Assembly: GCA_003153775.1 (NCBI GenBank)
Contig: PMBI01000011.1
Location: 86,303-150,302, forward strand
Origin: Syntrophaceae bacterium
Lineage (GTDB): Bacteria; Desulfobacterota; Syntrophia; Syntrophales; UBA2185
DNA length: 64,000 nucleotides
Direction of reading: 5' to 3'
Shown: positions 47,082 to 52,362 of the stretch, in pieces
How positions within the stretch are numbered: the first letter of the stretch is position 1
Layout of the letters: every line of letters begins with the position of its first letter
Notes under the pieces: model-generated
What the model was told of the DNA's origin: nothing
The model's input: the letters and a program-made list of their open reading frames with translations, nothing else
Databases searched by the model: none
Program-made: the position numbers and the translations under genes

Positions 47082-47879
47082 TCAGCCTTTTACGAGATCG
47101 CTGATGAAATTGACCATCTCTGAAAATGCCTTTTCGCTCGCCTGTATGTGAGGTATGTGTCCGCAATTATCGATCATCGAACCTCTCGCCGGCCCCATGA
47201 CGTTACCTGCAATGGATTCAACCTGGGCAGGCGTACCGTATTCGTCATCTTTTCCCTGAATGGCAAGAAGAGGGCAGGTGATATACGGGAGGTAACTTTC
47301 TATGTTCCAATCGCGGAACTCCGGCGAAAGCCAGATATCCGCCCAACCCCGGAACATCAAATCGGTATTACTTCCATGAAATTTTCCCAGGCGCGTTCCT
47401 AAATCCGTGTTCTCATATACCTCAACGGCGCGCTTGATACCCTCCACGGTGACATGCTCGACAAAGACATGAGCCGCCTCCGTTATTATACCTGCGACCT
47501 TTTGCGGATATGTTCCCCCATATATTATGGCAATGGAGCCGCCGTCGCTATGGCCTATGAAAAGAGGTTTATCGATGGCGCATCGTTCGAGGACTTCGGG
47601 CAGAATGAGCAGGGCCTCGTCATGGAGGTAGCTTGCTGTTCTCGGTTCCGTCAGAGGATCGGAACCGCCATGACCCCAGCGGTCATAGACTAGGGCGGGG
47701 CAGCCCGTTGCGTCGCATAGTGTTTCAGGGAAGTCTCGCCATTGACCGATGCTGCCCAGTCCTTCGTGGAGAAACACAAGCACGGGTCGATTGCCTGTTT
47801 CGGCCTGCGGCTTGATATACTCAGCACAGAGGCGGTGTTTCAATGCATGGATGTCAACCCTGTCCTTAGTAATGGCCAA
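47082..47879 (-). CDS. Alpha/beta hydrolase
   Basis: VFLHEGLGSIGQWRDFP; FIGHSDGGSIA nucleophile elbow; NCGHIPH. Confidence 0.9.
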   Translation of the reverse strand: MAITKDRVDIHALKHRLCAEYIKPQAETGNRPVLVFLHEGLGSIGQWRDFPETLCDATGCPALVYDRWGHGGSDPLTEPRTASYLHDEALLILPEVLERCAIDKPLFIGHSDGGSIAIIYGGTYPQKVAGIITEAAHVFVEHVTVEGIKRAVEVYENTDLGTRLGKFHGSNTDLMFRGWADIWLSPEFRDWNIESYLPYITCPLLAIQGKDDEYGTPAQVESIAGNVMGPARGSMIDNCGHIPHIQASEKAFSEMVNFISDLVKG

Positions 47880-47953
47880 TCAGATCTACCTCCGGCATGT
47901 CGCAACAAGTGGGAACGGAAGTTAAATTGCTTACTCAACTCCCGCTATGCCTG

Positions 47954-48241
47954 TCATTTGATAAAGCATGAGAAACGCTGATCGTACTTGAGCGGTAGAA
48001 ATTCAATGAACCGATATTCCGCGGCACCGTTGATGTAGAAAGGGTCGTTTTCCATGATTTGGCGGGCTTCGTCAACGGTTCCTACGTTTGCCACGATCAC
48101 ACCGCCCACCCGCGGGTTTTGCGGGCCGGAACAAATAAATTTTGAATTCTTATAGAACAGATCCAGAAATATTCGATGGTCCGCGAGGAGGGTATCGATG
48201 ACCTCGAGAGGTTTCGTATATTTCCCTAAGATAATAACCAT
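47954..48241 (-). CDS. YciI-like family protein
   Basis: HRIFLDLFYKNSKFICSGPQNPRVGGVIVANV...ENDPFYINGAAEYRFIEF. Confidence 0.85.
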   Translation of the reverse strand: MVIILGKYTKPLEVIDTLLADHRIFLDLFYKNSKFICSGPQNPRVGGVIVANVGTVDEARQIMENDPFYINGAAEYRFIEFLPLKYDQRFSCFIK

Positions 48242-48259
48242 TGAATCCCCCCTTTCTTT

Positions 48260-48868
48260 TCAGTCAATGAGTATCTCCTCGATTTTCAATCTTCTTCTCG
48301 GCGCAGGTGATTCAGCGGGATATCCAACCGGCAGGAGTGCGACTACATGAATATTCCGGCCCCACCCAAAGATTGCCTTGATCGCCTTTTCATCGAACAG
48401 TCTTATCCAGCAACTTCCCAGACCGAAATCCAGCGCCCGCAAAACGATATGTTCCACGGCAATGGCGAGGTTTAGGGCTATTCTCGGGGTGAGTTCTTCT
48501 ATCTCAACGGGTGTGTAGCGCTCGGTCCTGTCGGCAATGATCTTCACTATCCTCCCTTCGACGGCCCCGATCCTGCCCAGGTCCTGTATGCCCGAAACAG
48601 TACCATCTATGAAACTCTTTAGATCGATGCAACAGATGAAGACAACGGGAGCTTCGGCAATGAATGCCTGGTTATGAGATGCCTGAGAGAGTTGCAGTCT
48701 TGTTTCGCGGTCGCGAACAACCTTGAAGCGCCAGGGCTGTGCATTGGAACCGGACGGTGCGAGCCTTGCGGAGTCCAAAAGTGCCGTTATGTGCTCCTCA
48801 GGAACGGGGTCCGGTTTGAACTTTCTTATGCTCCGTCTTTTTTCTATGGCTTCTTTGGTTGTTAACAT
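48260..48868 (-). CDS. Nitroreductase-family protein
   Basis: EAIEKRRSIRKFKPDPVPEEHI; SARLAPSGSNAQPWRFKVV; GLGSCWI. Confidence 0.92.
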   Translation of the reverse strand: MLTTKEAIEKRRSIRKFKPDPVPEEHITALLDSARLAPSGSNAQPWRFKVVRDRETRLQLSQASHNQAFIAEAPVVFICCIDLKSFIDGTVSGIQDLGRIGAVEGRIVKIIADRTERYTPVEIEELTPRIALNLAIAVEHIVLRALDFGLGSCWIRLFDEKAIKAIFGWGRNIHVVALLPVGYPAESPAPRRRLKIEEILID

Positions 48869-48967
48869 TCTTCCTCCTGAGATATGCACGGAAGACCACC
48901 CTTCATGAAATGGCGGCCAAGATTTCCCGCTTTACTGAAATAAGACTGCATGCACGGCTGCAGATTC

Positions 48968-49432
48968 TTACACAGCCGCTGCCCGCTCGATGATTTCCCC
49001 GACGAGCTTCGCGGTTCTGCCCGTCAATTTCCTGCAGTCCTGGTGCTTCTGGCCTTGCCGATATTCTTTGACCTGGTTCTGATCCATCCAGTTTACGTTG
49101 ACTATATCCCTGCAGAGGATGTTGCCGTTTGCAATTTCCCCCCTGAAGCGCTTCATTAGTTCGTGCGCATATTTCCACATCCTAAAATCGGCGAACTTGT
49201 CACCTGTACTTCTGCCGTACATTAAGCCAATTACGGCAAGGCCCCCGATGAGAGCGCCGCATGTCTCACCGTGCGCGCCTAATCCTCCGCCAAAGGCGTC
49301 CATGGCTTTGAGCATATCCTCATTGATATCCTTACCAAGCTTCTCTTGCCCGACCGCAAGAACGGCCTGGCTTCAGTGGAAATGCTTGTCAAACAGGGCA
49401 CCAGCTTTCTCTTCCATTTCTGAGGGGTTCAT
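48968..49432 (-). CDS. Predicted selenoprotein: C_GCAxxG_C_C-family protein with Sec at UGA 49375-49373
   Basis: Minus-strand translation MNPSEMEEKAGALFDKHFH-U-SQAVLAVGQEKLGKDINEDMLKAMDAFGGGLGAHGETCGALIGGLAVIGLMYG...; RBS AAGGAGG; single in-frame TGA where family members have Cys. Confidence 0.87.
49344..49361 (-). promoter_or_regulatory. bSECIS-like hairpin of the C_GCAxxG_C_C selenoprotein
   Basis: UCUUGC-GGUCGG-GCAAGA, loop starts 17 nt after UGA and begins GGU. Confidence 0.7.
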
Positions 49433-49689
49433 AAGACCTCCTTTTCATTAGCTGCGAGAGCATTTGATACCAAGCATGAACCGAAATCGACATCCGTCAG
49501 TGCTGCCGTGCATCTAATTATTTAATACAATACCTAAAGATATTTATCAAATCAAATGCGAGTACGATTTTGACTGCAGACCAGCTTTTTTAAATGTATA
49601 ATTGACGAATCCCGAGTAATGTGCAAAATTACAATCATGGATGAAATGCAAGTAGCTGCGAAAACGGAAATGCGGTAAGAGATGGAAAT

Positions 49690-50046: not shown

Positions 50047-52362
50047 CTAATCCGCACCGCCTGTCAACTGAAATGAAGCCCAATAATACGGGTGGGGGTA
50101 TTTCTTCCGGGCGCTCAACTGCGCCTGCCGCAGAGCTTCCCGCTTACCTGTTTTCTTAAGCGCGTTATAAAACCCCGCCATGAGTTCCCCCGTGGCCTGG
50201 TCGTCCACCTTCCAGAGGCTCGACACAATGGAATTGCTTCCTGCATAGAGGAAGCCGCGCGTCAGACCTACCACGTCGTCGCCGTTTGCTACCTTTCCCA
50301 GACCCGTTTCGCAGGCGCTCAATGTCACGAGGTCGGCATCGATGTTCATAGAATAAAGCTTATCCACCGTCAGCCTGCCGTCGCTCCAATCATCACCGGC
50401 AAGGAGTAATGCCGACTTGAGAGGCATGTCGGAGTCAAACTGCCCGTGGGTGGCAAAATGGATATAAGTGAAACTCCGGCAGTATTTCCTGAACGCGGAC
50501 TCCGTCGCCTCCTTGCGCAGAAGCACGCGGGACTGAGGACGCGTGCGTGCTACCGCCTGCGCTTCTTCCTGGGCATAGGCGAGGTCATAACGCGAGTCGC
50601 CGAGGTCGGGATTGCCAAAGGCAAGGATCTCTCCAGGTTTGGAGGATTTCCTGGCATGGAGGTATCTGATAACGCTGGCGCTGGGAAGGATACGGATGCT
50701 GTACTGCTCAATCAGGTAGCCTCTGTCATTCAGCAAGGCATTGAATGGAAGATAGTGCAGGGCACCGTGCGGGACGATCACAAGATTGCGCTTGTCCAGC
50801 ATCTTTTCGAAGGGTTCAAAGAGCCGCTTGTAGAAACTCCGGGATAAGGTAAGATAATCGGAGGAACCCGCCGTCTCAAGAAGACTACGAAATTGCCGGA
50901 CATCCTCAAGAAGCTTATCGCCCTTGAGACGTATGGACTTCAAACTGTTTCGCGTCAGGACAAAGGCAAACATCTCACCCTCGCTGTAGTAGTACTCAAT
51001 AAGCGCTTCGTCAGGAGGCATAAGGGCCTGTATGTCGGAGGCGGAAAGTGACGTAACAGTCACAAGAGAGGCGAGTTCCGGGGACTTATCCCGCAGTTCC
51101 TGCTTCAGGCTGATAATGACACTGCGGGTCTTGGACTTTCCGGGTGATAGATCCTGCGCGATGACCTCCGCCTCGGCCTTTTTGTCCTCGGCCAAGAGAT
51201 TGCGGACGTCGCGCTCGTCGCCCGCCTTCACGGCGAAGTCCTGCTTAGAGGCCAGGAGATCGACGAGGGCGCGCGACTTTGACCGCTCCACGTAATCAAA
51301 GGCGGCGCCGTACTGGCCGTCCGCATAAAGCGACGCGATGAGGCGGCTGTAAACATTCTGCTTGTCGCCCACAAATCCGATCTTGCTTGCCTCCGTGTTG
51401 ATGGTCGAGCGCTGCTGTTCAACGAGGTCCACTGCGCGTCTGTAGAAATCTATTGCCTCTTTACGATTGCCTTCGGCATCGGCAATCTTTCCCCGATCAA
51501 ATAGTATCATCCAGTATATGTCCGTATTGTCCCGTGTCCGGGGCTCTTTCAGGAGGACGTCGTATCCGGCTTTCGCGTCGTTCAGGTTACCCGTTTCATA
51601 CAGACTCTTATTGAGGATGAATGCCTTGGGCAATTGACTGTAGGCAAATATGTCATCGCCTACGGGCATCGCGCCAGTCAGTATGACGGCGGCAGATGCC
51701 AGGGAGCGCGACCAGGAAATGCTTTCGTCTTCTCTGATGTAAGCCAGGCTCTTCTTAAAATCTCCCATGGCCATGTATATCCGTGAAAGCCCGTTGAGCT
51801 TATCGGTCTTGAGGAACGTAAAGGGATAATGGGTGCCGATGTCTTCCAGAAGTCTTGCGCATTCCATCGCCTTCTCGCGATTGCCGGAGAGTGCCTGCGC
51901 GAGGCCAAGTATGCTTAAGGCCTGAATCCTCATATACCGGTGAAGGTCTTTCTTTGTTACAATGTCATAAGCCTTTTGGGCCTCAATAACGGCCTTTCCA
52001 TAGTTTCCGAATTCTATATAGGCCTCAGCCCTAAGCAGACGCGGCATGATAGACATATCGAACATGTTTACGGTGATATCGCCCTTATCGATATTGGCGT
52101 CGAACTTATCGAGGCATGGAAAAAGTTTGTTATATTTTTTGAGCCTTGAGTAGGAGTAACAGAGATACATCAACTGTCGCGTTGAGGCCGAGTGCAGGTC
52201 TTTAACCTGGCTTTCCATGTAGGTCTCCAGTTCAGCGTAACGCGCGGCAGGCATCAACTGATCCTCCTTCGGTACCAGCATTCCCGCACATCCCGAGGTG
52301 CCCGCGAGGAGCATCAACAGGATTGATATAATGATTGCTCTGATAATGGATTCTCTCGGCAT
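50047..52362 (-). CDS. CHAT-domain (caspase-like) TPR lipoprotein
   Basis: Lipobox GTSGCAG; TPR region; YIHFATHGQFD and VTLSACETGLG catalytic motifs; SLWKVDDQAT. Confidence 0.92.
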   Translation of the reverse strand: MPRESIIRAIIISILLMLLAGTSGCAGMLVPKEDQLMPAARYAELETYMESQVKDLHSASTRQLMYLCYSYSRLKKYNKLFPCLDKFDANIDKGDITVNMFDMSIMPRLLRAEAYIEFGNYGKAVIEAQKAYDIVTKKDLHRYMRIQALSILGLAQALSGNREKAMECARLLEDIGTHYPFTFLKTDKLNGLSRIYMAMGDFKKSLAYIREDESISWSRSLASAAVILTGAMPVGDDIFAYSQLPKAFILNKSLYETGNLNDAKAGYDVLLKEPRTRDNTDIYWMILFDRGKIADAEGNRKEAIDFYRRAVDLVEQQRSTINTEASKIGFVGDKQNVYSRLIASLYADGQYGAAFDYVERSKSRALVDLLASKQDFAVKAGDERDVRNLLAEDKKAEAEVIAQDLSPGKSKTRSVIISLKQELRDKSPELASLVTVTSLSASDIQALMPPDEALIEYYYSEGEMFAFVLTRNSLKSIRLKGDKLLEDVRQFRSLLETAGSSDYLTLSRSFYKRLFEPFEKMLDKRNLVIVPHGALHYLPFNALLNDRGYLIEQYSIRILPSASVIRYLHARKSSKPGEILAFGNPDLGDSRYDLAYAQEEAQAVARTRPQSRVLLRKEATESAFRKYCRSFTYIHFATHGQFDSDMPLKSALLLAGDDWSDGRLTVDKLYSMNIDADLVTLSACETGLGKVANGDDVVGLTRGFLYAGSNSIVSSLWKVDDQATGELMAGFYNALKKTGKREALRQAQLSARKKYPHPYYWASFQLTGGAD

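Follow-up and report, generated by a model that had tools for sequence, protein, structure and literature searches.

The minus strand of the 64,000-nucleotide stretch analysed here (the window) carries a gene that, with a probability which we put at about 0.95 from sequence evidence, encodes a 154-residue selenoprotein of the C_GCAxxG_C_C family. Decoding of its in-frame UGA as selenocysteine (Sec) would be, by inference, close to certain, because the genome holds the sel genes, homologues carry either Sec or Cys at the same residue, the codons past the UGA are frozen and a hairpin follows the Sec/Cys switches. An earlier note on this DNA had proposed that the UGA encodes Sec, and the sel genes, the TGA/TGC homologues and the recurrence of the TGA in other assemblies all support that proposal. 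In the mechanism that we propose, the hairpin just past the UGA would direct SelB and Sec-tRNA(Sec) to insert Sec at residue 20, where it would replace the first conserved Cys of the family.

The read-through gene

Standard ORF calling yielded a single frame at this place, 48968..49315 on the minus strand, whose 115-residue product is missing its N-terminus. When the sequence is translated from the ATG at 49432 to the TAA at 48970-48968, the reading frame crosses one TGA (49375-49373) and gives a protein of 154 residues which begins MNPSEMEEKAGALFDKHFHUSQAVLAVGQEKL... and in which the UGA corresponds to residue 20, in the motif FH-U-SQAVL. The sequence AAGGAGG is found 4 nt upstream of this ATG (Table 1). 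The earlier note had described a called ORF without its N-terminus, a longer protein obtained by read-through and a strong ribosome-binding site, and all three were recovered. On inspection, no signal sequence was apparent in the 154-residue translation.

Table 1. Positions in the window of the features of the predicted selenoprotein gene.
Feature	Position	Strand	Basis
Predicted selenoprotein gene, 154 aa with Sec20, C_GCAxxG_C_C family (PF09719)	48968..49432	-	Read-through translation, PF09719 and TIGR01909 matches; stop codon included
In-frame UGA, predicted Sec20, first Cys of the family	49373..49375	-	TGA or TGC in 35 order-level homologues
AAGGAGG ribosome-binding site	49437..49443	-	Sequence; GGAG-type motif also upstream of many homologues
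Apical stem-loop UUCUUGC-GGUCGG-GCAAGAG, putative bacterial SECIS core	49343..49362	-	RNAfold, homologue comparison, synonymous-site freeze
Both stems of the SECIS-like fold (apical and lower, 7 bp each)	49334..49371	-	RNAfold; z -3.97 (45-nt fold)
Cys58 codon (ETCGA)	49259..49261	-	Invariant column; one of four invariant Cys/Sec positions
Cys107 codon (ILCRD)	49112..49114	-	Invariant column
Cys133 codon (QDCRK)	49034..49036	-	Invariant column

Family membership and known relatives

The read-through protein matched PF09719 with 94.1 bits (cut-off 27) over residues 18 to 147, and TIGR01909 with 68 bits (curated cut-off 47.4). Both curated cut-offs of the C_GCAxxG_C_C family are passed, and its four Cys positions are all present, the first as Sec. 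In 34 homologues the columns of Sec20, Cys58, Cys107 and Cys133 were invariant as Cys/Sec. The UGA had been placed at the first Cys of the family from the sequence alone, and the close homologues, which carry Sec or Cys there, agree with this placement.

Sec-containing members of this family have been recorded before. The NCBIfam name of TIGR01909, 'C-GCAxxG-C-C family (seleno)protein', admits them, and the family appears as 'form 1' and 'form 2' in a published list of prokaryotic selenoproteins (PMC13188914) and again in a second list (PMC9312934). These entries are Sec-containing and belong to the same Pfam family; since the lists do not give the position of Sec, the likeness holds at the family level. 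Because of these records the gene is not new in kind: it is a new, well-supported example, and the novelty implied by the earlier note is weaker than suggested.

The protein belongs to a subfamily without an equivalog model of its own, and its match to the DVU_1555 family (NF045669), 71.8 bits, lies below the cut-off of 103. The N-terminal part of the HUGP/GUXX-star fusion selenoprotein (NF045501), which by its name has a His-Sec pair like the HU motif described here, aligns to residues 5-135 with 54.1 bits. However, the cut-off of this model is far higher (325 bits), and NF045501, in which a second Sec domain is fused on, has HUGP in place of HUSQ. Distant homology to the split-Soret cytochrome c (PDB 1h21, NF047622) spans Cys58, Cys107 and Cys133, but the score with this model is 26 bits against a cut-off of 400, the haem-binding CXXCH of that cytochrome does not occur in the 154-residue translation, and the protein described here is shorter.

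Selenocysteine machinery of the genome

The genome is a MAG (3.13-Mb assembly, 99% complete). In this genome we found selB (388 bits), selA (614 bits), selD (383 bits) and tRNA-Sec (76.6 bits, gathering 47), so that the complete selA/selB/selC/selD set, which the earlier note had recommended looking for, is present. The selD gene (L021:1501-2430) is itself interrupted by one in-frame TGA, located in the motif HGAGUACK, where SelD proteins usually have their Sec; for this reason the selD of this genome probably also encodes a selenoprotein.

Sec and Cys forms among homologues

The order-level set comprised 155 genomes, with close homologues of about 42-97% identity. At residue 20, the codon was TGA in 24 unique sequences and in L061 (25 in total), and TGC in 10. 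Further copies from a sample of the phylum had 23 TGA against 20 TGC/TGT codons (14 TGC, 6 TGT); as the pattern used for this search demanded Sec or Cys at the site, other residues could not appear, and their absence from the phylum set is not an independent result. Cys/Sec pairs, for which a search had been advised, were thus obtained at both levels. Furthermore, the same TGA was present in homologues with 97% and 89% protein identity whose genomes had been assembled independently, which speaks against a codon that is in truth TGC or TGT, a doubt raised when the gene was first noted. Sec was also seen in the distant paralogues L082, L084 and L085, at what is apparently the same first Cys.

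These data bear on the reading in which the UGA terminates translation, a new start at ATG 49315 yields 115 residues, and the upstream part is a decayed N-terminus or the result of a sequencing error. Gene callers deliver this 115-residue ORF by default, but the N-terminus is conserved as protein in order-level homologues with 25 TGA and 10 TGC codons, a strong ribosome-binding site sits before ATG 49432 and the freezing of synonymous codons past the UGA, described below, is limited to the TGA forms. We therefore regard a true stop as highly improbable.

Tandem paralogue pairs with one Cys and one Sec copy were observed in the phylum relatives L130, L131 and L132 (TGC+TGA, TGT+TGA and TGA+TGT), and one further phylum relative, L126, has two Sec copies in tandem. 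In L060 (2050-2523), a Sec form stands amid Cys forms from the same genus group, and has a GGUCG loop on an entirely different stem sequence. A Cys-to-Sec reversal is possible in this case; since the constraint forcing the Cys forms of the group into one clade was not rejected (p-AU 0.0965), it is not claimed.

The hairpin after the UGA

RNAfold predicted a 7-bp apical stem (UUCUUGC / GCAAGAG, with a closing U-G pair) carrying the loop GGUCGG, which begins 17 nt past the UGA; this stem is stacked on a second one, also of 7 bp. The hairpin announced in the earlier note thus exists, with its loop and spacing as described, but its stem has 7 bp and not 6. The 45 nt from the UGA fold at -21.2 kcal/mol (z = -3.97), and 0 of 200 dinucleotide shuffles were as stable. 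When synonymous codons were shuffled with the peptide fixed, about 16% of the draws matched the GU-loop stem of this single gene (p about 0.16). For this reason the hairpin of this one sequence is not proof of a SECIS, and the case for decoding of the UGA is carried by the comparative evidence. An Rfam scan of the window returned one tRNA and nothing else.

Selection on the RNA and Sec/Cys switching

In the 24 TGA genes, codons Q22, V24, L25 and A26 showed 0.00 synonymous variation, and V27 and G28 showed 0.16 and 0.09, versus 0.53 (same-residue comparisons) elsewhere in the gene. Residues 21-31 of the 10 Cys genes, by contrast, varied freely (0.54 versus 0.49 outside this stretch). The cells of the 7-bp stem were paired in 94% of cases in Sec forms and in 67% in Cys forms. 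Pair counts revealed no double-sided compensation in the closest set, because the stem hardly varies there; likewise, a shuffle control on pairing in the Sec set was uninformative, its columns being nearly constant. The hairpins of distant Sec genes retain a GU-bearing loop but differ in stem sequence, with stems of the UCCUGGCC/GGCCAGGA types, of the UCUGC-AGUU-GCAGA types and, in L060, GCGGC-GGUCG-GCCGC. The median GU-loop stem score was 15.7 for 47 Sec genes and 5.0 for 30 Cys genes (Mann-Whitney p 1e-9, a value that ignores relatedness); the distant Sec forms L116 and L127 had low scores.

The best tree of 74 rows, computed with residue 20 masked, requires a minimum of 14 changes of the Sec/Cys label, and a minimum of 8 when supported branches alone are counted. 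Among independent pairs, a mean of 5.8 out of 8 had the hairpin on the side of Sec, and 0.1 had the opposite pattern; the sign test gave modest values (median p 0.03, range 0.016-0.63), with a hairpin threshold that had been chosen after the scores were seen. The comparison thus revealed what is expected of a bSECIS stem-loop, namely a G/GU in the apical loop and conservation in Sec but not in Cys forms. From these comparisons of sequences, we strongly infer that the UGA would be decoded and that the hairpin would act as its SECIS.

Low-level read-through is common in bacteria, and relatives have Cys at this residue, as might be expected if the UGA were read without SelB as another amino acid, either by a near-cognate Trp or Cys tRNA or through a general reassignment of UGA. 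This seems very unlikely: the genome possesses the whole Sec apparatus, including a selD interrupted by a Sec-type UGA, and the SECIS-like hairpin persists in Sec forms of the gene while being largely lost from the Cys forms. Moreover, under table 11 long ORFs are read all along the region examined.

Gene neighbourhood

Nitroreductase, YCII-domain (YciI-like) and alpha/beta-hydrolase genes lie downstream on the same strand (47082-48889 of the window, minus strand). The trio also adjoins the selenoprotein gene in the genus relatives L053 and L055, and the nitroreductase gene does so in L054. A conserved operon was considered and rejected: the downstream genes are kept within the genus only and the neighbours differ across the order and the phylum, so that no function was drawn from the context. 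Among genes named by inspection, three order loci (L056, L064 and L069) have an arsenite-methyltransferase-like gene immediately upstream of the homologue, and five loci have a CoA-binding acyl-CoA-synthetase-like gene upstream of it. In L069, an AhpD-like gene (also named by inspection) with a Cys-rich tail follows the homologue. The window also encodes, at 50047-52362 on the minus strand, a 771-residue TPR and CHAT-domain protein, of caspase-like protease fold.

Structure and possible biochemical role

The structure model is nearly all-helical (pLDDT 94). A fold search of the PDB with Foldseek gave no match better than E 1 and did not return 1h21. In the sequence search, the sole match was the split-Soret cytochrome c 1h21 (E 2.7e-5), in which Cys residues stand opposite Cys58, Cys107 and Cys133; the aligned part starts one residue past position 20, so that the first Cys falls outside it. 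An in-genome paralogue aligned to 1h21 for a test of the fourth ligand gave no match.

We would guess that the protein is cytosolic and either serves in redox chemistry or holds a metal centre. These data weakly suggest that it is small, soluble and helical, with Sec20 acting together with Cys58, Cys107 and Cys133. The four residues might form a selenol-thiol redox group, or might be ligands of an iron centre as in split-Soret cytochrome c, for which a 'novel iron centre' is reported (Abreu et al. 2003, as cited in PMC5701242). That the four residues ligate an iron or Fe-S centre, and do not simply form an organic selenol/thiol couple, is a tentative proposal: the invariance of the four Cys/Sec positions and the homology to 1h21 point to it, and the position of the first Cys just beyond that alignment, together with the lack of 1h21 or any other significant match in the Foldseek search, counts against it. 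Spectroscopic data for the subfamily were not found. A bolder version, which we hold to be rather unlikely, is that Sec20 would be a natural selenolate ligand of an iron/Fe-S centre in a stand-alone protein, that the repeated Sec/Cys swaps would tune the potential of the centre and that the members of the tandem Sec/Cys pairs (L130, L131 and L132) would then be partners. With operon partners conserved within the genus only and no significant fold match in the PDB, any biochemical role proposed here is provisional, and our high confidence concerns the selenoprotein reading and not this role.

Significance

In a family of unknown function, this is a well-documented example of a gene cut short by standard gene calling. 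If the metal-centre reading were true, a small protein with a selenolate ligand would be available from nature. Because Sec and Cys forms of C_GCAxxG_C_C proteins switch often between close relatives, the family lends itself, as a natural experiment, to asking when bacteria retain selenocysteine and when they give it up.
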